Of a stretch of 32,107 nucleotides of DNA, positions 4,784 through 31,746 are shown piece by piece. Made by a program: the position numbers and the translations under genes. The notes beneath the pieces are model-generated. The model saw only the letters and a list, made by a program, of their open reading frames with translations, ran no database searches and was not told where the DNA came from. Within the stretch, counting starts at the first letter, position 1. Each line of letters starts with the position of its first letter. This DNA is from Candidatus Avanaerovorax faecigallinarum (lineage in GTDB: Bacteria > Bacillota > Clostridia > Peptostreptococcales > Anaerovoracaceae), in the NCBI GenBank assembly GCA_019113145.1, contig DXHZ01000081.1:1-32107 (forward strand). Reading direction: 5' to 3'.

Positions 4784-5119
4784 GCCGCAAAGCTGTGTGC
4801 CTGTGGCTTTGGCAACTCACGGCTTTGTCAGGGCCGCGGAAATCCGTCAAAAGGCGCGGCACGTGAGTCTCGGCCGCGAGCCTCGCTTTTCCAGTTCGCG
4901 GCCCATGGATTTTACTGCAAAATCGCCAAAATTCCGTCAAGCGGCCGAGATTTTCGCTTCTCTGTCAGGTTTTCAAAGCCGATTTCTCGGCCACTTTTCT
5001 GATTGTTGTCCGCAGTGGCACAGATTTCATCGGCCGCAATGGCTGTTTTCAGCTTCGGCGGCCCACACGGCAATTCCCGATAAGGTCAATGTCGTTTCGT
5101 TTAGCAATGACGCGCAATA
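4784..5119. repeat. Non-coding region with CGGCC-core dyads (possible diverged member of the intergenic element family)
   Basis: No credible gene. The stretch contains many CGGCC-cored motifs in both orientations: GGCCGCGG near 4831, CTCGGCCGCGAG (4869-4880), CGCGGCCC near 4898, GCGGCCGAGA (4941-4950), the hairpin GCCGATTTCTCGGC (4978-4991), TCGGCCGC near 5030 and CGGCGGCCC near 5056. The order and rough spacing (first dyad, two inner half motifs, then a second hairpin about 109 nt after the first) resemble the elements at 11567, 15752 and 24033, with CGGCC in place of GTCGAA. A short TTGTTGTCCGC at about 5005 could stand for the anchor. It lies between the nlpC-type terminator and the mgtE promoter. 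Family membership is inferred and weak. Confidence 0.4.
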
Positions 5120-6402: not shown

Positions 6403-6465
6403 CTTTCATCCTTTCCGCGTGTCGGGAATTCCTTTTGAAAAATCCCCGCCGCACTGACAAAAGTG

Positions 6466-11508: not shown

Positions 11509-11566
11509 CCCCTCTTTGACTATTCCGGCTGTCGACAGGACTGCCCGTTTAAAGAAAAGCTTTTTC

Positions 11567-11725
11567 GTTTTGACAAAGACTTCAATTTTCGCCCCGCAGG
11601 TCAAGGCGTTTTTTTACAAAACCCACCTGAAAAACTTAAAAGGTCAAGAAATTCCCCCACACATAGGAGAAATGCCTTGACCTCTTTGTAAAATCTCTTC
11701 GATATGTCAAATTTCGCCTTGACCT
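11567..11725. repeat. Intergenic folded element, copy B (GGTCAAGG core)
   Basis: Anchor GTTTTGACAAAGAC (11567-11580), 17 nt, AGGTCAAGGCG (11598-11608), AGGTCAAG (11641-11648), GCCTTGACCT (11674-11683), and a closing dyad (11705-11725) with arms GTCAA and TTGAC. The outer arms AGGTCAAGGCG / CGCCTTGACCT match over 11 bp and the inner arms AGGTCAAG / CTTGACCT over 8 bp, so the same sequence forms nested inverted repeats. Read in reverse it superimposes on the elements at 15752 and 24033. It lies between the mrp stop and the DUF2325 promoter; no gene is visible. I do not recognise the family. Confidence 0.75.
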
Positions 11726-11750
11726 TTTCCGCAGCAGAGTAGCCTTTTGT

Positions 11751-11814
11751 CAAAGCATGCGTCCGGCTCACTTCAAAGCACGCACCCTGCCCACGCCAAA
11801 GCTCACGCCAAAGC
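11751..11814. repeat. Degenerate tandem repeat with CAAAGC every 23, 23 and 12 nt
   Basis: CAAAGC starts at 11751, 11774, 11797 and 11809. The two 23-nt units share about two thirds of their bases, and the last half-unit repeats CACGCCAAAGC. It directly follows the mrp stop on the transcribed side, and no ordinary terminator with a U-tract is seen there. An open frame runs through it on the minus strand, but without family resemblance or start signal. Confidence 0.6.
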
Positions 11815-11830
11815 GCATTGCAGACCGGGA

Positions 11831-12649
11831 CTACAGGCTCTCGGCAAGCTCCTTGATCTGCGGACATTCGTAGTTTTCCACGGTGCCGTTGTCGCAGGCC
11901 CGGGCCAACTCCGCATCCATAGGAAGCTTTGCGATTTCGGCTATTCCGTACTGAGCCGCGATATCCTCGATGTGGCTTTCGCCGAAAATCCTGTGCTCGG
12001 CTCCACAGTCAGGACACTTGAAATAGCTCATGTTCTCGACGATGCCCACGATAGGAATGTTCATCATGTCCGCCATCTTTGCGGCTTTCTCCACTATCAT
12101 CTCCACCAGCTCCTGCGGAGACGTAACGATTACGATTCCGTCAACAGGCAGGGACTGATATACGGTAAGGGCAACATCTCCCGTTCCCGGCGGCATGTCC
12201 ACAAACATAACGTCTATATCGCCCCATACGACGTCGGACCAGAACTGCTCCACAACGCCGCCCAGGATAGGACCTCTCCAGACCACAGGATCCGTCTCGT
12301 TTTCAAGAAGCAGATTTATGGACATCACCTTAATGCCCCCTGCAGTCTTTACAGGCATAATCATAGTCTCGTTTCCTACCGCTCTTTCGGCAAGACCGAA
12401 CGCCTTCGGAATGGACGGTCCGGTAATGTCGGCGTCGAGAATGGCCACATTTTTCCCTGCGGCGGCGGCAGCCGATGCCAGAAGGGAGGTTACGGACGAT
12501 TTTCCTACTCCGCCTTTGCCGCTTACCACGCCGATTACCTTCTTAACGCTGGACATACCGTTCATAGGCGCTTTTTTGATACCGGTGTTTTCTTCGCTGC
12601 AGTTTCCGATTGATGCGCAGGAGCTGCAGTCGTGATTGCAATCTGTCAT
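11831..12649 (-). CDS. mrp: Mrp/NBP35 (ApbC) family Fe-S cluster carrier ATPase
   Basis: P-loop ATPase that binds and transfers [4Fe-4S] clusters to apo-proteins in the cytosol; 272 aa. The N-terminus carries Cys4, Cys8, Cys11 and Cys17 (NBP35-like). The deviant Walker A is GKGGVGKS at 44-51. Next come LDADITGPSIPKAFGL, VDMPPGTGDVALTVYQSLPVDG, and the C-terminal CPDC pair (FKCPDCGAEHRIFG) that binds the bridging cluster. ATG 12649 follows GAAAGGAG. It lies 33 nt downstream of the AEC transporter gene and is probably cotranscribed with it. Confidence 0.94.
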   Translation of the reverse strand: MTDCNHDCSSCASIGNCSEENTGIKKAPMNGMSSVKKVIGVVSGKGGVGKSSVTSLLASAAAAAGKNVAILDADITGPSIPKAFGLAERAVGNETMIMPVKTAGGIKVMSINLLLENETDPVVWRGPILGGVVEQFWSDVVWGDIDVMFVDMPPGTGDVALTVYQSLPVDGIVIVTSPQELVEMIVEKAAKMADMMNIPIVGIVENMSYFKCPDCGAEHRIFGESHIEDIAAQYGIAEIAKLPMDAELARACDNGTVENYECPQIKELAESL

Positions 12650-12682
12650 TTTATCTGACTCCTTTCAAGATAATTATACTTA

Positions 12683-13624
12683 TTAAAACATCCCCAGAGA
12701 TTTGAAGATGAATATCCACAGAAAAAGGGTGATTCCGGCAAAGAGCGACGAAAATATCACGCAGTTTCCCGCAAGCTCCGAGTCGCTGTCCATGGCTTCC
12801 GCCATGGTAAAGGACGATACCGCCGCCGGCGCCGCAAATACCGCGATGAGGGTGACGAACTCCACGCCCCGGAATCCCGCAAAAGCCGCAAGGGGCAGAA
12901 ACACCGCCGGAACGACTACAAGCTTGCCCACAACCGAAATAACCAGATTCCTTTTGCACCTTCTGATGCTGGAAAAGCTGAAGGACGCTCCCAAAATGAT
13001 CAGCGCCACAGGAGTCGTCACCTGGGACATCTCGTCTATTATGGACTCTATGAGCTCCGGAACGTGAATCCCTGCAAGGGACACGATTATTCCCGCAACC
13101 GCTCCTATTATTATGGGGTTCTTTATAATCTGTACCACTATGTGGCCCGCCGAAACCCGTCCGCCCCTGAAAATTTCCAGGGTTATGACCGCAAGGACGT
13201 TGAACAGAGGAACTATGACGGCTACCATTATGGCCGTGGCCGCAATATTTCCGTGACCGCATATGTTAGTCGCCACAGGAATTCCCATGAGCACAAAATT
13301 GCTCCTGAATATAGCCTGTATCATGGCTCCCCGGGAATGGGGATTTTTCTCTATCCTCGTCACCACCAAAACGGCCGCGGCGAAAATCACCAGCACCGAT
13401 ACCACGCCGAATCCTATAAGCCTCGGGTTCGCCGCCTCCCTTATATCCGTCCCGTAGAGGTTCTGAAACATCAGAGTCGGGAAGAACACCAGGAATATGA
13501 GCCTGTTGAAGTGTTTGTTTTCTGTTTCGTTTACAATTCCGGCCTTCCTCACCGCCATGCCGATTCCGATTAGAACGAACACCGGCACCACGGCCTCCAG
13601 GGCCACTATAAGATTACTCAGCAT
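12683..13624 (-). CDS. AEC family transporter (auxin efflux carrier-like permease)
   Basis: Secondary transporter of 313 aa with about ten membrane segments in two five-helix halves (PIN/BART fold). Family traits are the start ALEAVVPVFVLIGIGMAVRKAGIV, FLVFFPTLMFQNL, IIKNPIIIGAVAGIIVSLAGI in the middle, and FVTLIAVFAAPAAVSSFTMAEAM with the conserved A-A-P-A/S-F region. Substrates in bacteria include malate, malonate and amino acids; nothing here decides. The ATG at 13624 overlaps the end of the cyclo-ligase gene by 11 nt, so translation is coupled. Confidence 0.9.
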   Translation of the reverse strand: MLSNLIVALEAVVPVFVLIGIGMAVRKAGIVNETENKHFNRLIFLVFFPTLMFQNLYGTDIREAANPRLIGFGVVSVLVIFAAAVLVVTRIEKNPHSRGAMIQAIFRSNFVLMGIPVATNICGHGNIAATAIMVAVIVPLFNVLAVITLEIFRGGRVSAGHIVVQIIKNPIIIGAVAGIIVSLAGIHVPELIESIIDEMSQVTTPVALIILGASFSFSSIRRCKRNLVISVVGKLVVVPAVFLPLAAFAGFRGVEFVTLIAVFAAPAAVSSFTMAEAMDSDSELAGNCVIFSSLFAGITLFLWIFIFKSLGMF

Positions 13625-14159
13625 CCGTTATCACCATATCAGCCTTTACATCGTAAGATTCCGTCGGAATGTCCTCCGTGACGAGCGGGGAAAAACACAA
13701 CGCCACCGCCGGGCACTTCGTCTTTTCAAGGTATCTGTCGTAAAATCCCGCTCCGTGGCCCAGCCTTCTTCCGTCAAAGGCTGCCGCCGCGCATGGTATT
13801 ACCGCAAAGTCGATATCCTCCGGCAAAATCACCTCGCCGCCTTTAGGCTCCGGGATTCCGTATTTTCCGGGAGCAAGATCTCTGTCAAAGTCCGCAACCT
13901 CCGCAGCCTCCATAACTCCCGGCCCCGTGCACCTGGGCGCGAAAACTCTCTTTCCCGCGTCGAGCGCCGCCCTTATTATCTTCTCCGTATCCGGCTCTCC
14001 GGCTACGGAAACATAGATGAACAGACTGCCGCACTCTTTGAACCGGCGAAGGCTTAAGACTTTGCGCGATATGACTTCCGACGCTTCTTTCATATATTCC
14101 GGGCTCAGGCTTTCTCTGACTGCCGCCGCCCGCTTTCTCGCTTCAGCCTTTGTCGTCAT
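13614..14159 (-). CDS. 5-formyltetrahydrofolate cyclo-ligase (MTHFS)
   Basis: Converts 5-formyl-THF plus ATP to 5,10-methenyl-THF, salvaging a dead-end folate. 181 aa, normal length. Segments seen are MTTKAEARKRAAAVRESLSP, the substrate region around GKRVFAPRC and GKYGIPEP, and the ATP loop GHGAGFYDRYLEK with ALCFSPLVTEDIPTESYDVKADMVITD. ATG 14159 lies at the stop of the Fe-S gene, and its own 3' end overlaps the AEC gene. The three genes form one translation unit; why a folate enzyme sits with a ferredoxin-like protein is not evident. Confidence 0.94.
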   Translation of the reverse strand: MTTKAEARKRAAAVRESLSPEYMKEASEVISRKVLSLRRFKECGSLFIYVSVAGEPDTEKIIRAALDAGKRVFAPRCTGPGVMEAAEVADFDRDLAPGKYGIPEPKGGEVILPEDIDFAVIPCAAAAFDGRRLGHGAGFYDRYLEKTKCPAVALCFSPLVTEDIPTESYDVKADMVITDAE

Positions 14160-14160
14160 A

Positions 14161-14604
14161 TTATTCCACGTCCCAGAAAATACAGTCTTTGCACTCCGGG
14201 CGTCTCGGATTCTCCCTGTCGCAGAATAACGGGTAAAGCCTCAGATCATGGCTCAGCTTATCGCCCATCAGGGATTTCAGTCCGGCTATCTGACAAAGAG
14301 TGCCTGTAAAGTCTGTAGTCACGCCGTTTTTGATGCTTCGTTTCGTGGCCCGGTAAACCTTCGGCATATCTCTCTCGTAGTACTCGTTGTCGTATTCGTA
14401 AAAGTCGTCGAACTGTGGCAGGGTCACCGGGTTATACAAAGGACAGTAGAGCAGGCAGTTGTTGCACTTGTTGCATCCGTTCTCGTCTATGACCGGGTAC
14501 TTTCTTCCGTCCTCTCCCGTTACCATTTTAATGGCGCTGTACTTGCATCCGACGATGCAGGCCGAGCAGCCGTTGCAGTTCTTCGCTCTGTCGGTAATCT
14601 GCAA
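14161..14604 (-). CDS. Compact Fe-S protein resembling the N-terminus of F420 hydrogenase/dehydrogenase beta subunits
   Basis: 147 aa with two ferredoxin-type [4Fe-4S] motifs: Cys10, 13, 16, 20 and Cys44, 47, 50, 54. The EDGRKYPVIDENGCNKCNNC style is that of FrhB-like proteins (G-x-YP-x-ID-x-x-x-C). After VYRATKR at 84-90 it has FTGTLCQIAGLKSLMG at 99-114, matching the FTGTPCQIAGLKS segment of the same family with Leu for Pro, and then CKDC (138-141). In FrhB proteins these parts are separated by a longer flavin-binding stretch and followed by a large C-terminal part; both are missing. The start is TTG 14604 after GGGAGATGA; no in-frame ATG fits. Coupled to the cyclo-ligase gene. Redox role inferred. 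Confidence 0.75.
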   Translation of the reverse strand: MQITDRAKNCNGCSACIVGCKYSAIKMVTGEDGRKYPVIDENGCNKCNNCLLYCPLYNPVTLPQFDDFYEYDNEYYERDMPKVYRATKRSIKNGVTTDFTGTLCQIAGLKSLMGDKLSHDLRLYPLFCDRENPRRPECKDCIFWDVE

Positions 14605-14644
14605 TTAAATCATCTCCCGTGCTGTTAATTTTAAGACCTCATCT

Positions 14645-14676
14645 ATTATACCAAACTCCGCCTGTAAAAAACAGGC
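14645..14676 (-). promoter_or_regulatory. Extended -10 promoter of the Fe-S gene with an overlapping inverted repeat
   Basis: Minus strand TGGTATAAT (TATAAT at 14645-14650), with the -35 region and spacer holding the inverted repeat GCCTGT-AAAAA-ACAGGC (14660-14676). One arm of this repeat is also the distal arm of the terminator of the upstream GNAT gene, so the terminator runs directly into this promoter. Confidence 0.6.
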
Positions 14677-14696
14677 CTTATTATATGAAGACCTGT
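14665..14696 (-). terminator. Intrinsic terminator of the GNAT gene
   Basis: Minus strand ACAGGTCTT (14688-14696), loop of 8 nt, AAGGCCTGT (14671-14679), then TTTTT (14666-14670): a 9-bp stem with one G-U pair, about 40 nt after the GNAT stop. The 5' neighbour of the T-run can instead pair as CCTGT/ACAGG. Confidence 0.75.
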
Positions 14697-14737
14697 CTCA
14701 GCGCTATATTGATACCCCTTTTAAACTGTTGCAATCC

Positions 14738-15181
14738 TTACAGTATTTCCCTTTCGTAAATAACGCACATATCTCCCGCAAGGTTTGCCATGGCGTCAAT
14801 CTCTCTGAACCCGCACTTCTCGTAAAGCCCCTTGGTCTCCGACGGTATGTATACCTCCCTGAATCCGCGGCTTCGCGCATAGGAAACCGCCGTCTCTACC
14901 ATCTGAAAGCTTATTTTGTCTCCTCTGGCCTCTTCCGTTACAAAGACGCTGCTTATCCAGGGGGTGTACCTGTTTTCGGAAAAATAGTCCTCCTTTAAGA
15001 GCGTACAGTATCCCAGGATTCTCCCGCCTTCTACGGCTGCAAAGAAGGCTTCCCCGTCGCCGAACCTGTTTTCCCGAAGAAGCTGCGCCACGTGTTTTCC
15101 GGCTGCCCACGAGCACTCTTCCGCAAAGTCTGCAGCCTTTGTCCACAGATGCTCACCACAGGAAATACGTTTTACTTCCAT
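14738..15181 (-). CDS. GNAT family N-acetyltransferase
   Basis: Acetyl-CoA dependent acyltransferase, 147 aa, single GNAT domain. Strand-turn features are ILGYCTLLKEDYF (beta 3 region), ISSVFVTEEARGDKISFQMVETAVSYARSRGFREVYIPSET (motifs A and B), and GLYEKCGFREID near the end. The acetyl-CoA loop reads ARGDKIS, lacking the second glycine of the usual RGxGxG/A pattern, so cofactor binding may be atypical. ATG 15181 follows AAGGAGG. It stands alone, with an extended -10 promoter upstream and a terminator downstream. Substrate unknown. Confidence 0.85.
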   Translation of the reverse strand: MEVKRISCGEHLWTKAADFAEECSWAAGKHVAQLLRENRFGDGEAFFAAVEGGRILGYCTLLKEDYFSENRYTPWISSVFVTEEARGDKISFQMVETAVSYARSRGFREVYIPSETKGLYEKCGFREIDAMANLAGDMCVIYEREIL

Positions 15182-15227
15182 TTTCCCTCCTTGTAACCCT
15201 GTCGTCTTTATGAATTTCCGATAAGCT

Positions 15228-15236
15228 ATTATATCA
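15228..15236 (-). promoter_or_regulatory. Extended -10 promoter of the GNAT gene
   Basis: Minus strand TGATATAAT (TATAAT at 15228-15233), about 45 nt before the GNAT ATG; no clear -35. Confidence 0.65.
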
Positions 15237-15287
15237 CGGGAATTAATGTCAGAAATATAAAAACTATAAAAAATGTAAAAAAAGGTG

Positions 15288-15324
15288 TTGACTTCTGACT
15301 CCTTTTGTATTAGTATAAATACAA
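15288..15324 (+). promoter_or_regulatory. Promoter of the plus-strand small transcript, with an operator-like dyad on the -10
   Basis: TTGACT (15288-15293), 17 nt, TAGTAT (15311-15316). The dyad TTGTATT-N6-AATACAA (15305-15324) has perfect 7-bp arms and is centred on the -10, a typical repressor position. The hexamers equal those of the NlpC/P60 promoter. Confidence 0.7.
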
Positions 15325-15663
15325 CGAAAGAAACAAGTTTTCATATATGGGAATGGAATCTTGAGGAAAGGAGTGAGTCGCAATGAAGAAGACGTTTTTA
15401 GGACCAGGAGACAAGATTGCGGCAGCACTTCGAATCAGAAATCTGTTTTAGAGACGAGCAGAATCCAGCAGTAGACACTGCAGAGCAGAGGAAAATATCC
15501 TGCATAAGTTAAACGCCGAAATCTCAGCAGATTCATCTGATAGATGTGTTGTCTCATAAGTTATCACATGAGAAGGAGACCATTTATATAGATTCGGTAG
15601 TAACTGAAGGTAAAAATAAATAATGGAAACCTAAAAGGGGGCTTAAGTGAAAGCCCTCTTTCT
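15323..15663 (+). ncRNA. Unassigned plus-strand transcript (about 340 nt) with a small ORF and its own terminator
   Basis: Bounded by the promoter at 15288-15316 and the terminator at 15636-15665, with no downstream plus-strand gene, so it is not an obvious leader. It holds a 22-codon ORF (15383-15451), then about 180 nt without a convincing gene. Local hairpins are GCAGT-AGAC-ACTGC (15468-15481), CAGAT-TC-ATCTG and TCTCAT...ATGAGA in the second half. A second possible mini-ORF begins at the ATG within GATAGATGTG near 15542 but has no ribosome-binding site. It does not match 6S RNA, tmRNA, SRP RNA, RNase P RNA or a T-box as far as I can see. Confidence 0.5.
15383..15451 (+). CDS. Small ORF, 22 aa, in the plus-strand transcript
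   Basis: ATG at 15383 is preceded by AAAGGAG with 9-nt spacing, in a purine-rich leader (GAGGAAAGGAGTGAG), so initiation should be efficient. The peptide starts MKKTFLGPGDKIAAALRIRN and ends soon after. It is basic, with no long hydrophobic segment and no Cys, so it does not look like a type I toxin or a lantibiotic. It could be a leader peptide that senses translation, a small regulatory peptide, or a sponge-type RNA's incidental ORF. I do not recognise it. Confidence 0.5.
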   Translation: MKKTFLGPGDKIAAALRIRNLF

Positions 15664-15665
15664 TG
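15636..15665 (+). terminator. Intrinsic terminator of the small plus-strand transcript
   Basis: GGGGGCTT (15637-15644), loop AAGTGA, AAGCCCTC (15651-15658, one G-U pair), then TTTCTTGTT. Confidence 0.75.
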
Positions 15666-15751
15666 TTGTGCTGCGTCACGGCAGGCTATGCATGCAGTAT
15701 ATAGCAGAATTTAAGCAGGCCTTCGACAACGAGACGGGTTTTCCGGGAAAA

Positions 15752-15918
15752 TGTCGAAGGTTTTTCGACATTTTTAGTTGTATGCGACTGATTTGCCGAA
15801 GATATCACCGGAAGATGCAGGTTTTGACCGATAAACTTTCGACAAAATCTGCAGACACGGACTGCAAAGCCGAAAAAGCTTCGGCAGAAACGCCTGAAAC
15901 AGACGTCTTTGTCGAAGC
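15752..15918. repeat. Intergenic folded element, copy C (GTCGAAG/GCCGAAG core)
   Basis: Dyad TGTCGAAGGTTTTTCGACA (15752-15770), half motif GCCGAAG (15795-15801), half motif CTTTCGAC (15836-15843), dyad GCCGAAAAAGCTTCGGC (15869-15885) and anchor GTCTTTGTCGAAGC (15905-15918). Start-to-start distances from the first dyad are 43, 84, 117 and 153 nt, against 43, 87, 118 and 155 in the copy at 24033. A further GCCTTCGACAAC lies just outside at 15719-15730. It sits between the small-RNA terminator and the 3' end of hisIE. No gene is visible. Confidence 0.75.
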
Positions 15919-15946
15919 GCGATAAAGTGCGGCAGAGCGCGATAAA
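15916..15946. repeat. Direct repeat AGCGCGATAAA, 20-nt period
   Basis: AGCGCGATAAA occurs exactly at 15916-15926 and 15936-15946, next to the anchor of the folded element and downstream of hisIE (minus strand). No ordinary U-tract terminator for the his operon is visible between hisIE and this point. Confidence 0.6.
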
Positions 15947-16000
15947 ATAAGATAGTTCAAAGCGAAGTTAAGCAGCTTAAACCACCGCCAACGACGCTCC

Positions 16001-16648
16001 CTATACCATCTTCTCCTGCTTGACCTTGTGGTCAATCACGTGGCGGCTTGCAAGCTCCGCCCTGATGTCATCAAGTGTAATCCCCATCTCTATCATGAGA
16101 ACCATCACGTGGTAGACAAGGTCAGAAATCTCGTATATGGTTTCGGCCTTGTCGCCGGCTTTGGCTGCAATTATGACCTCGGTGGACTCCTCGCCCACCT
16201 TCTTTAAAATCTTGTCGATTCCCTTTTCAAAGAGATACGTGGTGTAGGAGCCTTCCTTCTTCTCCGTCTTTCTGCCCTCAATGAGCTCCATAAGGCTTTC
16301 CATGGTGAACCCGGCATTTTCCGGATTCAGGTAAACCAGATCGTTGAAGCAGGAGTCGGTGCCCAGGTGACACGCCGGGCCGTCCTTTGTCACGTTCACC
16401 ACCAGAGCGTCCCGATCGCAGTCGGCCGTTATGCTGTAAATGTGCTGGTAGTTTCCCGAAGTCTCACCTTTCAGCCAGAGCTCCTGTCTTGAGCGGCTCC
16501 AGAAGCATGTCAGTCCCTTCTTCATTGAAATCTCAAGGCTTTCCCTGTTCATATAGGCGACGGTCAGCACCTTGCCGCTGGAAAAGTCCGTCACCACCGC
16601 AGGGATAAGTCCCTTCTCGTCAAATTTAAGTTCATCTATCTTAACCAT
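16001..16648 (-). CDS. hisIE: Bifunctional phosphoribosyl-AMP cyclohydrolase / phosphoribosyl-ATP pyrophosphatase
   Basis: Catalyses steps 2 and 3 of histidine synthesis (PR-ATP to PR-AMP to ProFAR). HisI domain at about 1-110: [37 protein letters not shown], and [13 protein letters not shown] with the metal-binding Cys residues. HisE domain at about 120-215: [40 protein letters not shown] prefer ATG 16648 (215 aa): AGGAG stands about 9 nt upstream, while the ATG at 16657 abuts it. Last gene of the his operon, 26 nt after hisF. Confidence 0.96.
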
Positions 16649-16674
16649 TTCAGTCATCTCCTGTTCCGCCCTGT

Positions 16675-17430
16675 TTATCTCACGTTTATTCCGGCTTCCG
16701 CCAGAGCTTTCTTCAGATCCGGGATTGCAACTTCGCCGAAGTGAAATATGGAAGCCGCAAGGCCTGCGTCTACTTCCGGTATCTCCTTAAATAGGGTTAT
16801 GAAGTCTTCGATACATCCCGCGCCGCCCGAAGCTATTACGGGAACCGGGGAAATATCGCACACGGCTTTCAGCATTTCAAGGTCGAAGCCCTTCTTTACG
16901 CCGTCGGTGTCTATGCTGTTTAAGACGATCTCTCCTGCGCCTAAGGAGATTCCCTTTTTTATCCATTCTATGGCGTCCATTCCGGTGTTTTCCCTTCCGC
17001 CTTTGGCGTAAACGCAGAAACGGCCGTCTTCCCGTTTTGCGTCCACGGAAAGAACGACGCACTGGTCGCCGTACTTCTTTGCCGCCTCGCTTATGAGGCC
17101 CGGGTTTCTTATGGCTCCCGAGTTGACGCTGACTTTGTCAGCGCCGCACTTTAAAACTCTGTCAAAATCGTCAATGGTGTTTATTCCTCCGCCTACGGTA
17201 AGGGGTATGAATATGGTTCTCGCAACCTCAGTCAGAATGTCCGTAAACAGAGCACGTCCTTCTGCCGAAGCGGTTATATCGTAGAAAACCAGCTCGTCCG
17301 CGCCGTTTTCCGAGTAGTACCTTCCCAGCTCCACCGGTGAGGATACATCGGAAAGCCCCTGGAAATTGACCCCTTTGACCACCCGTCCGTCCTTTACGTC
17401 AAGGCATGGGATTATTCTTTTAGTTATCAA
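16675..17430 (-). CDS. hisF: Imidazole glycerol phosphate synthase, cyclase subunit
   Basis: Beta/alpha barrel that takes ammonia from HisH and PRFAR to give IGP and AICAR; 251 aa. Motifs are [18 protein letters not shown] (first catalytic Asp), [23 protein letters not shown], and VLSVDAKR...[13 protein letters not shown] with the second catalytic region, [13 protein letters not shown]. The start codon is TTG 17430 after GGGAGG with 6-nt spacing; its TTGA overlaps the hisA TGA stop. In this operon hisH and hisF are separated by hisA. Confidence 0.97.
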
Positions 17431-18176
17431 AGTCTGCCTCCCTTCTCAGGCTCGTCCTGACGGCCCGCAAGGCTGATAGCCTCTTCAAGGTCTACGGACC
17501 CGGTATACAGAGCCTTTCCCAAAATCGCCCCGTAGAGATTCATCTCCGACAAAGCCTTCACGTCGGAAAGAGAAGAAACGCCGCCGGAGGCGATAATATC
17601 GAGACCGAACCTTTCGTTCAGCTTCCCGTAAAGCTTCAGATTGGTACCCTTCATGGCTCCGTCCCTGCTTATGTCTGTGCATATGACCGTTTTAACGCCG
17701 TCCGCCTCCATGCGGGCGCAGAAATCCTCGCAGGTCACGTCGCTGACCTCTGTCCAGCCTTTTATGGCCACAAGGCCGTCTTTTATGTCCACGCTTACGG
17801 CGATGTGCTCCGCTCCGAATTTTTCTACCGCCCTGCGGACAAAGCCATCTTCAGTAATGGCGGCAGTTCCCAGAATGAGCCTGTCCACGCCGATTTCAAG
17901 GTATTTTTCTATGGTTTCAAGGCTTCTTATTCCTCCGCCCAGCTGGGTGAAAAGCCCCGTCTCCGACGCTATCTTCCTTACGGTCTCAAGGTTGGGAGTG
18001 AGGCCGGATTTTGCGCCTTCAAGATCCACCATGTGGAGAAAGCGGGCGCCTTTTTTCTCGAACTCCGCCGCAAACTCCGCAGGATTATCGCTGTAGACGG
18101 TCATCTCGTTATAATCGCCTTTAAAAAGCCTTACGGCCTTTCCTTCAAATATATCTATGGCAGGAAATACGTTCAT
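17427..18176 (-). CDS. hisA: ProFAR isomerase (1-(5-phosphoribosyl)-5-[(5-phosphoribosylamino)methylideneamino]imidazole-4-carboxamide isomerase)
   Basis: Amadori isomerase of histidine synthesis with a half-barrel repeat fold; 249 aa. FPAIDIFEGKAVRLFKGDY carries the first catalytic Asp. Others are FLHMVDLEGAKSG, LGGGIRSLETIEKYLE, VSVDIKDGLVAIKGWTEVS and ICTDISRDGAMKGTNL with the second catalytic Asp. ATG 18176 is behind AGGAGGCGGG; the frame stays open further upstream but without family match. The start overlaps the hisH stop and the stop overlaps the hisF start. Confidence 0.97.
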   Translation of the reverse strand: MNVFPAIDIFEGKAVRLFKGDYNEMTVYSDNPAEFAAEFEKKGARFLHMVDLEGAKSGLTPNLETVRKIASETGLFTQLGGGIRSLETIEKYLEIGVDRLILGTAAITEDGFVRRAVEKFGAEHIAVSVDIKDGLVAIKGWTEVSDVTCEDFCARMEADGVKTVICTDISRDGAMKGTNLKLYGKLNERFGLDIIASGGVSSLSDVKALSEMNLYGAILGKALYTGSVDLEEAISLAGRQDEPEKGGRL

Positions 18177-18814
18177 ATGCCCGCCTCCTCTCCCGGCTTC
18201 AGCTCGCAGAAGGCTTTGAGCATGGAAAGTCCCACTTTGCCGCTCTTTTCGGGATGAAACTGACATCCGTACACATTGCCCTTTGCCGTAGCGGCCGTAA
18301 GACGGACTCCGTATTCCGTATCCGCAATCACGTACGGTCCGCACTCCGACGCGTAATATGAGTGAACGAAGTACACGCAGTCTCCCTCGTCTATGTATTT
18401 AAACAGCTGGCTCTTAGGCCTGTCCTCCGGAAAGATGAGCCTGTTCCAGCCTATGTGGGGAACCTTGTACCCTTCCGGTATTACCGGTTTCATGGACACG
18501 ACTTTGCCCGGAATCAGTCCCAAGCATCTGTGGTTTCCGTACTCCTCTCCCTCGTCAAAGAGAAGCTGCATGCCGAGGCATATTCCCAGGAGAGGCTTCC
18601 CCTTCGCCGCCTCCTCCTTGACCACTTTGTCGAGGCCGCCGGCGTGAAGCTTTTCCGCGGCGTCACCGAGCGCTCCCACTCCCGGCAGAATTATTCTGTC
18701 CGCTTTTCTTATCTCCTCCGGATCTCCCGTTACCAGAGCTTCTGCTCCGATGGCTCCAAGAGAGCTTTTCAGGGAAAAGAGATTCCCCACTCCATAGTCT
18801 ACTATTGCAAGCAT
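18173..18814 (-). CDS. hisH: Imidazole glycerol phosphate synthase, glutamine amidotransferase subunit
   Basis: Class I glutaminase that feeds ammonia to HisF; 213 aa. The nucleophile Cys is in GKPLLGICLGMQLLFDEG, and the His-x-Glu pair in YGCQFHPEKSGKVG. The oxyanion region LPGVGALGDA is intact. ATG 18814 directly follows the hisB TAG, with AAAGGAG inside the end of hisB as ribosome-binding site, so it depends on hisB translation. Confidence 0.97.
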   Translation of the reverse strand: MLAIVDYGVGNLFSLKSSLGAIGAEALVTGDPEEIRKADRIILPGVGALGDAAEKLHAGGLDKVVKEEAAKGKPLLGICLGMQLLFDEGEEYGNHRCLGLIPGKVVSMKPVIPEGYKVPHIGWNRLIFPEDRPKSQLFKYIDEGDCVYFVHSYYASECGPYVIADTEYGVRLTAATAKGNVYGCQFHPEKSGKVGLSMLKAFCELKPGEEAGI

Positions 18815-19402
18815 CTAAAGGACTCCTTTCGTGGAAGGAACCGCGCCGCCGAGGGATTCGTCCACCGCCGCAGCCTCCCGCATAACTCTTCCGAAGGCTT
18901 TGAACGCGCCCTCAATTATGTGGTGGGAATTGGTTCCCGAAAGCTTTCTGACGTGAAGGGTGACCTGCGCGTTTCTGACAAAGGCCGCAAAGAACTCCTC
19001 TGCAAGCTCTGTATCGAAGGTTCCTATCTTCTCTGTCGGAACGCTTACATCGTATGACAGGAAGCTTCTGCCCGAAATGTCTGCGGCCGCCAGGATAAGA
19101 GCCTCGTCCATAGGAAGAATTATATTTCCGTACCTGTTTATCCCTCCCATGTCGCCGAGGGCTTCACGAAACGCCGTACCCAGGACTATTCCCACGTCCT
19201 CCACGCTGTGATGATCGTCCACGTAGGTATCGCCTTCGCAGTAGACGTTGAGGTCGAACCTGCCGTGGCGGGCAAAGAGTGTAAGCATGTGGTCAAGAAA
19301 GCCCACTCCCGTACTTATTTCAGATTCGCCCCGTCCGTCTATATTAAGGGATACACGCACCGAGGTTTCTCCGGTGGTTCTCTCTATTTCACTCTTTCTC
19401 AT
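18815..19402 (-). CDS. hisB: Imidazoleglycerol-phosphate dehydratase
   Basis: Mn-dependent dehydration of IGP to imidazole-acetol phosphate; 195 aa, monofunctional (no histidinol-phosphatase domain). Metal-binding motifs are GVGFLDHMLTLFARHGRFDL, DDHHSVEDVGIVLGTAF, ... HVRKLSGTNSHHIIEGAFKAFGRVMREA. The start overlaps the hisC stop (ATGA). Since no histidinol-phosphate phosphatase is in this operon, that step must be encoded elsewhere. Confidence 0.97.
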   Translation of the reverse strand: MRKSEIERTTGETSVRVSLNIDGRGESEISTGVGFLDHMLTLFARHGRFDLNVYCEGDTYVDDHHSVEDVGIVLGTAFREALGDMGGINRYGNIILPMDEALILAAADISGRSFLSYDVSVPTEKIGTFDTELAEEFFAAFVRNAQVTLHVRKLSGTNSHHIIEGAFKAFGRVMREAAAVDESLGGAVPSTKGVL

Positions 19403-20469
19403 TTCAACGCTCCTTTCAGCATTTCATCAACGCAGCAGAGGAAGATGTCCATCTCCTCGTCCGTTCCGATGGTGACTCTGTTGTAATCCTTTATTCTCTC
19501 TTTGTCGAAGTGCCTTACGAGAACTCCACGCTCTCTCAGGCCTCTGTAAAGGTCCTCTCCCGAAATCCTGTCCGACTTTACGAATATGAAGTTGGCCATG
19601 GACGGAACTACCGTAAAGCCCCGCTTTATGAGCTCCGCCGCCGTCTTTTCCCTGGTGGCCTGTATCGCCCGGCACCTGTCCCTGTAGTACTCCTCCGATT
19701 TCATGGCTGCGATGCCCGCAAGCTGGGTCAGGGTGTTTATGTTGTACGGGTTGGTTGAAAACTTCAGGGTCTCAAGATCGGCTATAAGGGACTTATCCCC
19801 CAGGGCGTATCCCAGACGGGCTCCCGCCATGGACCTTGACTTGCTGTAAGTCCGGCAGACGAGAAGATTGTCATATTCTCCCGTGAGGCATACGGCCGAC
19901 TCTGCTCCGAAATCCACGTAGGCTTCGTCGATCAGAACCACGTTATCCCTGTTATTTTCAAGGATTTTCCGTATATCGTCCAATTGCAATATTCGTCCCG
20001 TCGGCGCGTTAGGGTTGGCTATGATCACCATTCCGTCCGCTCCGAAGTAATCCGCCGGATCTATGGAGAAGTCGTCCTTTACTGGAATCTCCACGGCTTC
20101 AAGGCCGTGCAGCGCCGCAAATACCGGATAGAATCCGTATGTCAGATCCGGAAAATACACCTTTCCCCCGGGCTTTGAAAAGGCCATGAAGGCGAAGTTC
20201 AGTATGTCGTCGGAGCCGTTTGCCACGTACACGTTTTCCCTCCTGAGGCCTTCGGCTTTTCCTATGGCGTCCTTAAGGGCCGCCGATTCCGGATCCGGGT
20301 ACAGCCTGAGCTTTTTTACGTTCTCCGGGCTCATGCACGCCAGTACCTCCGGCGAAGGAGGATAAGGAGACTCGTTGGTATTTAGCTTTACGTATTTCAT
20401 ATCCCGGGGCTGCTCCCCCGGAACGTACGGATCGAGGCTTTTAAATTTCTCGCTGAAAAATCTGCTCAT
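19399..20469 (-). CDS. hisC: Histidinol-phosphate aminotransferase
   Basis: PLP enzyme (fold type I, class II aminotransferase) converting imidazole-acetol phosphate and glutamate to histidinol phosphate; 356 aa. The PLP lysine is in YSKSRSMAGARLGYALG. Other marks are KLNTNESPYPPSPEV at the N-terminus, ANGSDDILNFAFMAF, IIANPNAPTGRIL, LIDEAYVDFG, and the C-terminal GVLVRHFD...VTIGTDEEMD. ATG 20469 lies one base after the hisD stop, with GGAG in the hisD end. Confidence 0.97.
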   Translation of the reverse strand: MSRFFSEKFKSLDPYVPGEQPRDMKYVKLNTNESPYPPSPEVLACMSPENVKKLRLYPDPESAALKDAIGKAEGLRRENVYVANGSDDILNFAFMAFSKPGGKVYFPDLTYGFYPVFAALHGLEAVEIPVKDDFSIDPADYFGADGMVIIANPNAPTGRILQLDDIRKILENNRDNVVLIDEAYVDFGAESAVCLTGEYDNLLVCRTYSKSRSMAGARLGYALGDKSLIADLETLKFSTNPYNINTLTQLAGIAAMKSEEYYRDRCRAIQATREKTAAELIKRGFTVVPSMANFIFVKSDRISGEDLYRGLRERGVLVRHFDKERIKDYNRVTIGTDEEMDIFLCCVDEMLKGALK

Positions 20470-20470
20470 C

Positions 20471-21757
20471 TTACTTTTCTCCGGCTTTCACTCCTGTGCG
20501 AACCAGCGCGCTCCTTGCGTGGGCCTCCAGCCCTTCCGCTCTCGCAAAGGCTGCAATGTCCGCCGCGCACTCTCTGAACGCATCTTCCGTGTAATATGTG
20601 TACTGATACTTTTTGACAAAATCGTCTACGGAAAGAGGGCTTGAGAATCTGGCCGTTCCTCCCGTCGGCAGTGTGTGGTTAGGGCCTCCGAAGTAGTCTC
20701 CCAGAGCCTCAGGGCAGTTCTTGCCCAGGAATACGGATCCCGCGTGGCGAACCCTTCCCAGCATGTCAAAAGGCGCATCTGTGCATATTTCAAGGTGCTC
20801 CGGCGCTATTTCGTTTACCACGTCCACCGCGTCCTCAAGGTTTTCCGTAACTATTATCTTTCCGTTGCTTTCTATGGACGCCCCCGCAATTTCCTTTCGC
20901 GGCAGGGTCTCAAGCTGTCTTTCTATTTCCGAAGCCACCGCCTCCGCCAGCTCTTCGCTGTCCGTCACGAGAACCGCGCTGGCGTTTTTGTCGTGCTCGG
21001 CCTGGCTCAGCATGTCCGCCGCCATGAACTCCGGGTTGCACGTTCCGTCCGCCAAAACGAGAATTTCGCTGGGACCGGCTATCATATCTATGGCAACTCT
21101 GCCGAACACCTGCTTTTTCGCCTCTGCAACAAAAGCGTTTCCCGGGCCTACTATCTTATCGACCCGCGGAACGGTTTCCGTTCCGTAAGCAAGAGCCGCC
21201 ACGGCCTGCGCACCGCCGACCTTGAACACCCTGTCAACTCCCGCTATCCTTGCTGCGGCCAGAATAACAGGGTTCAGCTTTCCGCCCTTTGACGGGGTGG
21301 TTATAACCATCTCCTTCACCCCGGCAATCTTTGCCGGAATGGCGTTCATCAGCACCGATGACGGATAGCTGGCCGTTCCTCCCGGAACGTAAAGGCCCGC
21401 CCTGTCAAGGGGCACCACCTTCTGTCCCATTACTATTCCATCTTTATCATTTATGATGAAGCTGTTTCTCACCTGCTTTTCGTGAAAGGCTCTGATGTTG
21501 GCGGCGGATTTTTTCATCACCTCTATGAGTGCGGGATCCACTTCATCCATGGCCTCCTGCCATTCCTCTTCCGAAACCTCAAGGCTCTCAAGGTCCGCTT
21601 CGTCAAACTTACTGCAGTACCTCAAAAGGGCCTCGTCGCCGTTTTCCCTGACGTCCCCTATTATTCCGGCAACCACGTCCTCCACCGAATCCGCGGCAGT
21701 TCCACGGTCAAATATCTCCGACGCCGGTACCTTTCCGTACTTTAATATTTTAATCAT
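20471..21757 (-). CDS. hisD: Histidinol dehydrogenase
   Basis: Zn-dependent, NAD-linked four-electron oxidation of histidinol to histidine (last two steps); 428 aa. Recognisable segments are GLYVPGGTASYPSSVLMNAIPAKIAGV, VGGAQAVAALAYGTETVPRVDKIVGPGNAFVAEAK, IDMIAGPSEILVLADG, AEHDKNASAVLVT (catalytic Glu/His region follows), NEIAPEHLEI and GGPNHTLPTGGTARFSSPLSVDDF. ATG 21757 follows AGAGGTAGAAA, 6 nt after hisG. Confidence 0.98.
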   Translation of the reverse strand: MIKILKYGKVPASEIFDRGTAADSVEDVVAGIIGDVRENGDEALLRYCSKFDEADLESLEVSEEEWQEAMDEVDPALIEVMKKSAANIRAFHEKQVRNSFIINDKDGIVMGQKVVPLDRAGLYVPGGTASYPSSVLMNAIPAKIAGVKEMVITTPSKGGKLNPVILAAARIAGVDRVFKVGGAQAVAALAYGTETVPRVDKIVGPGNAFVAEAKKQVFGRVAIDMIAGPSEILVLADGTCNPEFMAADMLSQAEHDKNASAVLVTDSEELAEAVASEIERQLETLPRKEIAGASIESNGKIIVTENLEDAVDVVNEIAPEHLEICTDAPFDMLGRVRHAGSVFLGKNCPEALGDYFGGPNHTLPTGGTARFSSPLSVDDFVKKYQYTYYTEDAFRECAADIAAFARAEGLEAHARSALVRTGVKAGEK

Positions 21758-21763
21758 TGGTTT

Positions 21764-22411
21764 CTACCTCTGTTTCTGCATATCCTGAACCACGTCTCTC
21801 AAAGCTCTGCTTATCTTCTCTATGCTGCGGTTTTTGAACTTGAAGCTGACTTTGTTTGAAATGAGGCGGGCGCTTATATCCACTATGGTGTCCAGGACCA
21901 CCAGGTCGTTTTCCTTAAGGGTGGTTCCCGTCTCCACGATGTCCACTATGACGTCCGAAAGTCCCAGGATAGGGGCAATCTCGATGGAGCCGGAAAGCTT
22001 TATGATATCTATATCCCGGCTCTGCCTGCCGTAATAGTCCGCCGCTATGTTTGAGAACTTGGTGGCGACTTTGAGAGTCTTTCCCGGATTGTCCCTGAAG
22101 TCCCTCTTTCCTGCCACGCACATTCTGCACTTTCCCGTCTCAAGGTCCAAGAGCTCGTAGACGTCGGGCTCGTACTCCAGCAGGATATCCCGGCCCGCAA
22201 CACCTATGTCCGCAGCTCCTCTCTCCACGTAGATGGCAACGTCCGAAGGCTTTACCCAGAAGTACCTTACTCCCGCTCCCTCGGATTCAAATATGAGCTT
22301 CCTGCTGTCCTCCTTTATGGACGGACACGGAAAACCTGCCGCCTCAAACATATCGTATACTTTTTCTCCAAGCCTGCCCTTTGGGAGGGCAACGTTTATA
22401 ATATCATTCAT
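21764..22411 (-). CDS. hisG: ATP phosphoribosyltransferase, short catalytic form
   Basis: First committed step of histidine synthesis (ATP + PRPP to PR-ATP), the feedback-regulated enzyme. 215 aa, the short HisG that lacks the C-terminal regulatory domain and needs HisZ. Segments are VALPKGRLGEKVYDMFEAAGFP, VERGAADIGVAGRDIL, and DVIVDIVETGTTLKENDLVVLDTI (PRPP-binding region). The start overlaps the hisZ stop (ATGA), consistent with equal synthesis of the hetero-octamer partners. Confidence 0.97.
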   Translation of the reverse strand: MNDIINVALPKGRLGEKVYDMFEAAGFPCPSIKEDSRKLIFESEGAGVRYFWVKPSDVAIYVERGAADIGVAGRDILLEYEPDVYELLDLETGKCRMCVAGKRDFRDNPGKTLKVATKFSNIAADYYGRQSRDIDIIKLSGSIEIAPILGLSDVIVDIVETGTTLKENDLVVLDTIVDISARLISNKVSFKFKNRSIEKISRALRDVVQDMQKQR

Positions 22412-23550
22412 TTTAACACACCTCCCGGCAGATATTCCATGAGTTTTCTGTATTTCAGCCTTTCCGGAGGATTTTTCTGCGCCTGCACCGAATATCCCTC
22501 TTCTATCAAAGCGTTTACCCTGTCCGCCAGGTCTTCCGGGTCAAAGTTTTCACTTTCCGCAGCTTTTCCGTAAAGGAGCAGAACGTCTACGTCGTACTCC
22601 TCCTGATCCTCCGCGCAGCCGTTTATGAGATCCATATTTATGGCAAAGCCTATGGCACCGGACTTTTCACTTCTTCGCTTGCCCATTTTGTCGAGAAGCT
22701 CATCGTATCTTCCTCCCGACAGAACTCCTGACGGTATGCCTTCTATGTAACCCCTGAACATCACTCCGTTGTAGTAGCTCATGTCGTTTACCAGGGAGAA
22801 ATCCAGGTGTACGCCGTCGGCTCCCTGGGCCTGCAGAATTCTGCATATGGTCTCAAGCTCATCAAGGGCCTCATCCATCGTATCGTTTAATGACGATCCG
22901 CGAAGCGCCTCTATTACGCTTTCCGGCGAACCGTATGTGGATGCAAGAGCTATGGCCGTCTCTCTCAGCTTGTCCCCCGTTCCGATGCTGTCAAAGAGCG
23001 TTCTTATGCCGTGGACGTTTTTCTTTCTGAGAAGGGAAAGGAACATTTCCTCGTGCTTCGGCCTCAGCTCAAGCTCCTGCAAAAATCCCCTTATAAGGCC
23101 CATGTGAGAAACGTCCAGAATGTATCTGCTTTCTCCCAGAGCCTCAAGGCTTGCCGCCGCAAGCATCAGCACCTCCGCCGTCTGGTACACGTCCAGATCG
23201 CCGATACATTCCAGGCCCGTCTGCATTATCTCTTTATACGTTCTGGTGTTTCTCGACGTTCTGTATATGTTCTCGCTGTAGTAGACCTTTTTCACTTCCC
23301 CGGGTACATCGATATAGTTCTTCACTATGGAAAGGGTCACGTCCGGCTTCAAAGCCAGCAGCCTTCCGTTGGTGTCCGTAAATGTTATAATCTTGTCCCC
23401 CGCCAGAAAATCCTTATTCTCCGCATAAAGGTCGTATTCCTCGAACTTGTTCATCTTATAGTGAACGTATCCGAAATGCTCGTAGATGTGTCTGAGGCTC
23501 AGCTGTCTCATATCTTCTTTCGTAAGTGTCTGATCAAATCTGAATTTCAT
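22408..23550 (-). CDS. hisZ: ATP phosphoribosyltransferase regulatory subunit
   Basis: Histidyl-tRNA synthetase paralogue that binds histidine and controls the short HisG; 380 aa. Class II synthetase-like core: FVHYKMNKFEEYDLYAENKDFL region, KIITFTDTNGRLLALKPDVTLSIVKNY (motif 2-like), IYRTSRNTRTYKEIMQTGLECIGD, and PSGVLSGGRYDELLDKMGKR (motif 3-like). The anticodon-binding domain of true HisRS is reduced. First gene of the operon, ATG 23550, with a 350-nt untranslated leader upstream. Confidence 0.95.
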   Translation of the reverse strand: MKFRFDQTLTKEDMRQLSLRHIYEHFGYVHYKMNKFEEYDLYAENKDFLAGDKIITFTDTNGRLLALKPDVTLSIVKNYIDVPGEVKKVYYSENIYRTSRNTRTYKEIMQTGLECIGDLDVYQTAEVLMLAAASLEALGESRYILDVSHMGLIRGFLQELELRPKHEEMFLSLLRKKNVHGIRTLFDSIGTGDKLRETAIALASTYGSPESVIEALRGSSLNDTMDEALDELETICRILQAQGADGVHLDFSLVNDMSYYNGVMFRGYIEGIPSGVLSGGRYDELLDKMGKRRSEKSGAIGFAINMDLINGCAEDQEEYDVDVLLLYGKAAESENFDPEDLADRVNALIEEGYSVQAQKNPPERLKYRKLMEYLPGGVLK

Positions 23551-23583
23551 TTAGTCCGCCTTCGTTTCAGTTTACTTTTTCGC

Positions 23584-23638
23584 CTGCTTTGCAGTCTATA
23601 TTTCAGCTGCTTTCATCTGCTTACTTTATATCTGCTTT
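23584..23638 (-). repeat. Four AAGCAG motifs between the his leader terminator and hisZ
   Basis: On the minus strand AAGCAG occurs four times; its plus-strand complement CTGCTT starts at 23584, 23607, 23617 and 23632. They lie in the untranslated RNA just before hisZ, downstream of the leader terminator, and share the AAGC core of the ladder at the start of the same RNA. Confidence 0.6.
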
Positions 23639-23692
23639 ATTACTCTACCACGTTAAAGCGATAAAGTAAAGGCCTATCCCTCAAAAAAACAA

Positions 23693-23778
23693 CAAAAAAA
23701 TAATACCGGATGTTTCTTTTTTTCGGCCTCGCTCTCTATCAACCACAATCGCTAAACCTTCAAAACATCCGGTATTAT
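23693..23778 (-). terminator. Long-loop intrinsic terminator in the his leader (attenuator candidate)
   Basis: On the minus strand a 16-bp perfect stem (arms 23763-23778 and 23700-23715, core ACCGGATGTTT / AAACATCCGGT) closes a loop of 47 nt and is followed by TTTTTTTG. It lies about 125 nt after the predicted transcription start and 140 nt before hisZ. A stop inside the leader implies conditional read-through. No T-box sequence (AGGGTGGNACCGCG) and no His-rich leader peptide is present. Confidence 0.75.
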
Positions 23779-23867
23779 CTCTTCTGATTTAACTCTGTCA
23801 CTTCTGGTGGACTCACCTCTTTCTTGGGTTACGACTCTCACATCGCAACTTCATCTTCAGCGAACCT

Positions 23868-23901
23868 GCTTCGTCGCTTACGCTTCTTTGCTTCCTCGCT
23901 T
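23868..23901 (-). promoter_or_regulatory. AAGC ladder at the start of the his leader RNA
   Basis: Five AAGC motifs on the minus strand, with plus-strand GCTT starting at 23868, 23876, 23882, 23890 and 23898 (spacing 8, 6, 8, 8). The first is within a few nt of the predicted +1. The two segments AAGCGAGGAAGC and AAGCGACGAAGC are direct repeats. Regular short motifs in single-stranded RNA resemble TRAP or HutP target arrays, but with another motif and period; protein binding is inference. Confidence 0.6.
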
Positions 23902-23910
23902 CTTGAGTAT

Positions 23911-23938
23911 ATTATAACCCATCATAATAGTTTGTCAA
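23911..23938 (-). promoter_or_regulatory. Promoter of the his operon
   Basis: Minus strand TTGACA (23933-23938), 16 nt, TATAAT (23911-23916): both hexamers are consensus. It is strong on paper, fitting control after initiation in the leader. Confidence 0.88.
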
Positions 23939-24032
23939 TACTATTTTTTGAAAAATTTCAGTTATTTTTGCAAGGTGGCGCTGCTCGGCTTTGTATGGGG
24001 CGTGCTCGACTTTTAAGGCGAAATTTGAAAAT

Positions 24033-24201
24033 AAGTCGAACGGTTTTTCGACATCAAAGCCTGAAAACGGCTTCAAGGTCGAACATATTTGCTATTTTCA
24101 ACAGGTTTATGTCTAAAAAGTTCGACCTAAGGCCCCAAATCTCCATTTTTTGTCGAAAAACCGTTCGACCTCATTACGAAAAAACGTGGTCTTTGTCGAA
24201 C
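24033..24201. repeat. Intergenic folded element, copy D (GTCGAAC core) with a 19-bp inverted repeat
   Basis: First dyad at 24033-24053 (GTCGAA-N6-TTCGAC), AGGTCGAAC (24076-24084), GTTCGACCT (24120-24128), second dyad at 24151-24171 containing TGTCGAAAAACCGTTCGAC, and anchor GGTCTTTGTCGAAC (24188-24201). The first dyad is the exact reverse complement of the second over 19 bp, each dyad can also fold on itself, and the inner pair matches over 9 bp. Flanking AAGGCGAAATTTGA (24015-24028) occurs again inside the element at 11567-11725. It lies between the fbp terminator and the his promoter, with no gene. Confidence 0.85.
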
Positions 24202-24235
24202 TATTCCTTAAAACCAATGAAAAATCGCATTCACA

Positions 24236-31623: not shown

Positions 31624-31632
31624 ATATCGAAA

Positions 31633-31746
31633 CCGGCAACGTCCTGCTTTCCCGGGCAGTCTCCCGCCAGGTATCATCGGCGCTGGGGAGCTTAACTTCT
31701 GTGTTCGGGATGGGTACAGGTGTGTCCTCCCCGCCATTGTCACCGG
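31633..31746 (-). rRNA. rrf: 5S ribosomal RNA
   Basis: About 114 nt on the minus strand, 5' end CCGGTGACAATGGCGGGGAG, internal conserved CCCATCCCGAACACAGAAGT, 3' end GGACGTTGCCGG pairing with the 5' end (helix I). Ends are placed by that pairing and may shift by a few nt. It follows 23S in the usual order. Confidence 0.95.

Follow-up and report, generated by a model that had tools for sequence, protein, structure and literature searches.

Mirror-symmetric intergenic elements with eight half-sites, dispersed through Candidatus Avanaerovorax genomes and matched in word to paralogs of a predicted PD-(D/E)XK nuclease

We analyzed a 32,107-nt stretch of DNA from Candidatus Avanaerovorax faecigallinarum (contig DXHZ01000081.1, positions 1 to 32,107; hereafter, the window), in which intergenic elements of approximately 200 bp recur. 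These elements belong to a dispersed, mirror-symmetric family built from eight 6-bp half-sites at fixed spacings, and the family exists in several versions that differ in the half-site sequence (hereafter, the word), several of the words being found beside their own paralog of a predicted PD-(D/E)XK nuclease gene. We consider it likely that each nuclease binds the half-sites in duplex DNA, where it would cut to copy or move the elements. Throughout, G000 denotes the genome from which the window comes, and G001, G002, and G003 denote three relatives in the same genus.

Three window copies were examined on both strands and then tracked through the whole genome. A model (R1) built from a MAFFT alignment of eleven copies matches both strands at each place, with a 4-bp offset, and the element is thus mirror-symmetric. 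From the four genomes we extracted 116 copies, of which 58 measure 193–199 bp (short class, approximately 196 bp), 54 measure 204–209 bp (long class, approximately 206 bp), and four are truncated; the classes differ by about one helical turn (approximately 10 bp). Nearly all full copies carry eight half-sites in the order left, right, left, right and then the mirror image, with modal center spacings of 31, 12, and 31 bp, then 33 bp (short) or 43 bp (long), then 31, 12, and 31 bp, the exceptions being mostly one base off the modal value. Each arm thus consists of a dyad (GTCGAA-N6-TTCGAC, with a 12-bp center spacing) and two outer half-sites 31 bp away, and is itself symmetric. The short class uses the words GTCAAG and GTCAAA, and the long class GTCGAA, ATCGAA, or GCCGAA, which are mixed inside single elements in many copies. 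We also observed 92- and 58-bp deletion derivatives (L098:7577-7668 and L230:2490-2547) that retain their outer sites together with some inner ones, and a tandem of an ATCGAA-type and a GTCGAA/GCCGAA-type element in G000 (L201:460-995), where the G003 locus has the second alone.

These results both confirm and revise a preliminary description of the window. The three copies lie where it placed them and share one plan, and a scan for the geometry alone, blind to the word, recovers them while finding nothing of equal score in block-shuffled sequence. The extents it gave (11567-11725, 15752-15918, and 24033-24201) are too short, as each lacks an additional left terminal half-site; its dyad-to-dyad distances of 117, 117, and 118 nt measure 106, 116, and 117, the first copy falling in the class that is about 10 bp shorter; and what it read as dyad, half motif, half motif, dyad, and anchor is in fact the unit of eight half-sites. 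Its internally matched core is indeed based on a word, but not a perfectly uniform one, given the mixing in the long class, and its count of three, though each copy is real, omits a fourth element of the same layout (Table 1). This fourth element gives a BLAST match (C98:4867-5037) with 81% identity to one GGCC copy, and represents, in dispersed form, the element type flanking the nuclease gene of G000 contig C36.

Table 1. Elements of the family in the window, with the positions of their half-sites (L, left arm; R, right arm)
Element	Extent	Strand	Class	Word	Left half-sites	Right half-sites	Orthologous copy	Remark
c1	11566-11760	-	short	GTCAAG/GTCAAA	L1 11749-11754, L2 11718-11723, L3 11706-11711, L4 11676-11681	R4 11643-11648, R3 11612-11617, R2 11600-11605, R1 11569-11574	G002:C9:19508	R3 imperfect
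c2	15716-15919	+	long	GTCGAA + GCCGAA	starts: L1 15722, L2 15753, L3 15764, L4 15795	starts: R4 15838, R3 15869, R2 15880, R1 15911	G002:C9:15912	
c3	23998-24203	+	long	GTCGAA	starts: L1 24005, L2 24035, L3 24047, L4 24078	starts: R4 24121, R3 24152, R2 24164, R1 24195		L1 imperfect (CTCGAC)
fourth	~4866-5066 (ends approximate)	+		GGCC[CG]A				shared layout; inner dyad halves weak

The preliminary description had proposed a search for further copies, which proved positive within a single genus. Counting partial copies, R1 finds 41 places in G000, 42 in G002, 55 in G001, and 16 in G003 (E ≤ 0.001), and none at E ≤ 0.01 in 37 further genomes from the family and order, under stricter filters for multiple genomes. 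Plasmid and phage collections searched at the DNA level with c2 gave no match. An exact 18-mer search, with R1 run on 80 of the 89 stretches and on three viral loci, yielded elements in L098, L108, L117, L127, and L157; the first is likely G003 contig C36 (each gives a 92-bp match of 51.3 bits), and the other four are G001 or G002 contigs.

The layout is shared by words that R1 does not represent. Over 835 kb of sequence from the genus, the geometry scan (loops of up to 260 bp) made 115 calls, comprising 105 R1 elements and 10 others, against none in controls in which letters were shuffled within blocks of 150–300 bases and none in 230 kb from 14 other genomes of the family. It added the words GGCC[CG]A, GGCAAA, CCTTAA, and CCAATA, with distances between the inner half-sites of 32–33, 41–44, 125, 135, or 139 bp; four calls with inner distances of 83, 104, 248, and 257 bp are probable mis-pairings. 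Twelve unpaired arms, part of which were traced, compare with two in the shuffles. A GGCC copy used as a BLAST query gave 14, 4, 14, and 10 matches in G000, G001, G002, and G003, respectively, and within G000 at least six different words occur in the one layout. At the c3 locus, G002 has a GGCAAA-word element in place of the GTCGAA one, and at two further loci the species differ in the version of the long class, the elements being mostly 55–64% alike, with one comparison at 71%. Several arrangements of words may be recorded here: a CCAATA and a GGCAAA element lie adjacent at L205:1717-2365, with a GTCAAG element nearby at 2455-2651; GGGCCA words alternate in orientation approximately 26 bp apart at L199:11612-11830; up to fifteen copies of GGGCCA adjoin a nuclease gene at L333, 3' of the gene at 3056-3811; and a cluster of GTCACC/GGTGAC in both orientations, possibly another word class, adjoins a small GTCAAG derivative at L011 (G000:C31, beside 6396-6407).

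The link to a nuclease comes from the genes that the elements flank. A gene encoding 263 amino acids lies between two GTCAAG elements on contig C53 of G000, and homologs adjoin a long-class element on C18 of the same genome and lie between two long-class elements in G001 (the genes neighboring the nuclease were viewed by eye at three loci). Genome searches gave 11, 12, 11, and 8 matches in G000 to G003, some of them fragments or containing stops, and 0–5 in other genomes, with a homolog present in 10 of 36 genera. We scanned 1500 bp on each side of 49 gene hits (46 once three duplicates are removed) for words, at a score of at least 38 out of 48. Elements stand on both sides at nine loci, and in all nine the word is identical on the two sides (GTCAAG at two, RYCGAA at one, GGCC at four, GGATAA at one, and TCCTAT at one, the last in genome G018 of another genus); since the GTCAAG loci are mutually orthologous and the GGCC loci likewise, these represent five clades. 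One-sided arrays carry CCTTAA/CCATAA, CCAATA/CCCAAA, GGCAAA, AACCAA, and, by eye, CTACCAAAT. The gene-flanking word is also that of dispersed elements in five cases (GTCAAG, RYCGAA, GGCC[CG]A, GGCAAA, and CCAATA).

This association exceeds what is seen around other genes. Under a stricter score (element ≤520 bp), 16 of 39 nuclease genes in the genus have an element, compared with 15 of 188 controls (p = 1.5e-6), and six have one on both sides, compared with none of the controls (p = 2e-5), where the control genes come from element-rich contigs and orthologs among the nuclease genes are not independent of one another. In other genera one of seven nuclease genes passes the stricter score, and some 6-letter word occurs at least six times on one side in five of the seven (11/188 controls). 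Orthologous nucleases retain their word: GTCAAG in three of three genomes, GGCC in four of four, RYCGAA in three of three (one gene broken), and CCTTAA/CCATAA in three of three. The protein tree omits four gene fragments of the 46, and words were placed on it by hand from the word scans; in it, similar words fall in sister clades (GTCAAG with RYCGAA, support 0.99; GGCC with GGGCC, 0.80). Short-class copies number 27, 21, and 24 in the three genomes with a GTCAAG-type nuclease, and four in G003, where we found no close match to that nuclease.

The nuclease itself falls outside the common family models, with no Pfam or NCBIfam family above chance; at E 0.01, Pfam gives no match for 47 of 48 homologs, and for the remaining one TPD only (0.0026). 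Having no Pfam model, it is invisible to routine annotation. Its C-terminal residues, approximately 113 of them, resemble the PADLOC candidate defense family PDC-S68 (E = 4e-25) and, weakly, PDC-S69 (6e-5). Among 5.8 billion proteins there are 55 relatives at E 1e-5, one of them from Ihubacter, in the family Anaerovoracaceae. Across 48 aligned relatives VRSKSE, YE, DF, H.G, and Y are invariant, and the C-terminal motif reads VRSKSE..PDF..EHxG. In the predicted structure (predicted local distance difference test score [pLDDT] of 92), two helices form an N-terminal coiled coil, which carries a three-stranded tip, and the C-terminal part adopts a PD-(D/E)XK fold. On this model, the restriction endonuclease–like fold together with the acidic residues of the motif makes the protein a member of the PD-(D/E)XK superfamily, and cleavage is predicted. 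A sequence search of the PDB returned nothing below E 0.46, and a Foldseek search of the PDB with the model nothing below E 0.05; the N-terminal half gave coiled-coil-type matches alone, which are uninformative. In nine of ten nuclease pairs the ratio of nonsynonymous to synonymous substitution rates is 0.04–0.17 (it was not computable for the tenth), indicating that the gene is under strong purifying selection. In two species, orthologous loci (L214:2518-2886 and L248:2351-2651) hold a GTCAAG element that is abutted or overlapped by what remains of a decayed GGGCC-type nuclease (61–71% identity).

How the elements have evolved in place bears on what recognizes them. Flank matching yielded 47 orthologous element pairs, of which 37 entered a substitution count (nine pairs below 72% identity were left out, as was a pair in which one partner measures 58 bp). 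Half-sites differ at 28 of 1750 bases (1.6%) and spacers at 553 of 5731 (9.65%; p = 2e-36), a ratio that may be overstated, since discovery with R1 and best-match placement of half-sites both favor intact half-sites. Relative to substitutions, indels are six-fold rarer in the elements (25/507) than in their 50-bp flanks (131/412; p = 9e-21; 36 pairs, with one truncated pair and flanks diverged by more than 30% also excluded), so that the letters of the spacers may change while their length hardly does. Like-oriented half-sites lie 43, 64 or 74, and 107 or 117 bp apart, which at 10.5 bp per turn corresponds to 4.1, 6.1 or 7.05, and 10.2 or 11.1 turns, all within about one-fifth of whole turns. 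The combination of free spacer sequence and fixed spacing points to a protein on duplex DNA.

The preliminary description had instead suggested selection on a folded RNA or DNA structure. Its inference of a family under selection holds, as the conservation between orthologs attests, but we find a folded RNA, in which transcribed elements would form conserved hairpins whose paired bases change together, highly improbable. RNAalifold does predict 21 pairs, 12 of them with two-sided change, and the middle pair of half-sites, L4 with R4, covaries strongly. However, in a coupling count on 23 nonredundant long-class copies (30 redundant rows of 53 dropped) under three codings, L1 and R4, which are like-oriented and unable to pair, are coupled (z 5.5 to 9.7) as strongly as sites that could pair (L4-R4, z 5.8 to 12.1; L1-R1, 4.4 to 6.1), so that the coupling is explained equally well by common ancestry or by a protein word that the sites have in common. 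For pairing between the two dyads, the coupling is slight (L2-R2 and L3-R3, z −0.6 to 2.2). Nor would an RNA need helical phasing or a spacer of fixed length and free sequence; mirror symmetry leaves no clear strand, the nuclease loci carry the same word, and an Rfam scan of the window at the gathering threshold reports ribosomal RNA (rRNA) only, with nothing on the elements. On the Rfam scan, RNAalifold, and the coupling matrix we rejected the folded-RNA reading; the features fit protein half-sites on duplex DNA.

A protein other than the nuclease might nonetheless be the one that binds. The genomic placement of the elements, their helical phasing, and their conservation in place would all suit arrays to which a host factor (nucleoid, gyrase-like, or termination) binds, with the nuclease genes merely neighbors. 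Based on simple longest-frame gene calls, in which small errors are likely, 50 of 93 elements lie in convergent gaps, 37 in tandem, and 6 in divergent ones (14 edge and 9 frame-overlapping elements of the 116 were omitted), in comparison with 51 convergent, 272 tandem, and 46 divergent among all 369 gene pairs in long loci, and 17, 36, and 11 among the 64 gaps of at least 200 bp. Convergent gaps are thus favored, and elements lie at a median of 59 bp from the 3' end of a gene. A single host factor would explain neither the six or more words in one layout within G000 nor the match of word to paralog on both sides of a gene, and we regard this alternative as unlikely. Selection acts on copies that have kept their locus from before the divergence of the species, and the likeliest reason is that, between convergent genes, they are still bound by their cognate protein.

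In the mechanism that we favor, in which the paired nuclease is that protein, the element would serve as a duplex landing pad with two symmetric arms. One or more dimers of the cognate nuclease (a multimer) would likely bind each four-site arm, like-oriented sites facing about the same side of the helix; the two arms would then be brought together, likely by pairing, and cleavage by the nuclease would follow. The elements flanking a gene would be the parental pair and the solo elements their nonautonomous offspring, as repetitive extragenic palindromic sequences (REPs) are to the genes of REP-associated tyrosine transposases (RAYTs). We infer dispersal in trans through nuclease cutting because a gene-flanking pair coexists with solo copies, and because G003, which gave no close match to the GTCAAG-type nuclease, has four short-class copies against 21–27 in the other three genomes.

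Besides the possible overstatement of half-site conservation, three results weigh against this proposal. The ends of 85 nonredundant copies show no direct-repeat signal of target-site duplication, although these copies are old; among 11 candidate rows for clean empty sites, none of the five examined is a simple insertion; and, for the long class, copy number does not track nuclease presence well, with 32 and 12 copies in genomes with the gene, 16 where the gene is broken in the assembly, and 10 where it is missing. Given the lack of both a target-site duplication signal and a clean empty site, movement is the weakest step.

The lack of a target-site duplication signal, in copies that are old, is also a point against ordinary miniature inverted-repeat transposable elements (MITEs), which are small, noncoding, inverted-repeat elements present in many copies, as the elements here are. 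They would then be terminal repeats belonging to a DDE transposon, its autonomous copies having been lost or overlooked, and the nuclease gene would be cargo or an accessory. Long inverted symmetry, several subfamilies, presence that differs between species, and inner distances spanning 33 to 139 bp are in keeping with such an origin. On the other hand, the half-sites stay conserved in place after insertion and genes are flanked by two whole elements rather than two ends, which makes this origin very unlikely; we saw no transposase with matching ends in loops of up to 260 bp, with the unpaired arms partly traced and the word-free scan covering 835 kb. The resemblance of the C-terminal domain to the two PADLOC families and the many nuclease paralogs per genome raise a further possibility, namely defense or addiction, in which the nuclease, having DNA as its target, is sequestered, restrained, or marked by the elements. 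Defense alone does not account for gene-flanking pairs and dispersed copies with the same word, and we consider it quite unlikely.

To our knowledge, REP/RAYT is the standard bacterial case of a single-copy enzyme accompanied by a dispersed population of repeats. Published accounts describe dispersed intergenic inverted elements, each gene type flanked by its own repeat, several such pairs per genome, and a comparison of gene and repeat trees (PMC2817692, PMC3116915). The family described here likewise consists of dispersed intergenic inverted elements, with genes flanked by their own repeat and several pairs per genome, though here the flanked gene is a PD-(D/E)XK gene and the flanking on both sides holds for the nine loci in five clades, not for all paralogs. 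The predicted enzyme is unrelated to the Y1 HUH protein of RAYTs, and an element of approximately 200 bp, in which eight duplex half-sites keep a fixed spacing, contrasts with a short REP hairpin. A search for PF01797 (Y1_Tnp), which is positive for five genomes, among them that of E. coli, in a control set of 14, found none in G000 and G001, two in G002, and three in G003, and the arm consensus has no conserved GT(A/G)G-like REP head. By analogy, the system appears to work like REP/RAYT, but it is not a member, because the Y1 domain is absent from G000 and G001 and the elements are not REPs.

Other known repeats and nucleases resemble parts of the system. The bacterial interspersed mosaic elements (BIMEs) of E. 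coli (PMC2817692) consist of regularly spaced short words of alternating orientation between genes. The elements described here share this arrangement and differ in their fixed eight-site layout, changing word, and linked nuclease paralogs. Rpn proteins also have the PD-(D/E)XK fold, and we know of no dispersed element family for them. The recombination-promoting Rpn nucleases (YhgA-like, PF04754) are linked to recombination or phage defense (PMC5350276, PMC10327210). Several paralogs are a common trait; the nuclease described here differs in its lack of Pfam matches, given above.

A broader proposal, on which we are evenly divided, is that this is a new class of selfish or domesticated bacterial repeat system, with up to approximately eleven parallel nuclease–word pairs per genome, each paralog recognizing its own array of eight half-sites, spreading it in trans and co-evolving with it, so that the word has often been reinvented within one nucleoprotein geometry. 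Nothing of this kind would have been described among bacterial repeat systems before; in the literature that we searched, mostly abstracts, we found no account in which a PD-(D/E)XK gene is paired with repeats like these. If true, a REP/RAYT-like system would have been built on a restriction-type nuclease, and the occurrence of this population structure with a second, unrelated enzyme would mean that the lifestyle is one that evolves repeatedly. The paralogs, whose words differ within one layout, would form a natural specificity series, which could show how a word changes without a change of the complex. Elsewhere in the window, 5S rRNA and the end of 23S rRNA occupy positions 31631-32107 on the minus strand, at the contig edge.

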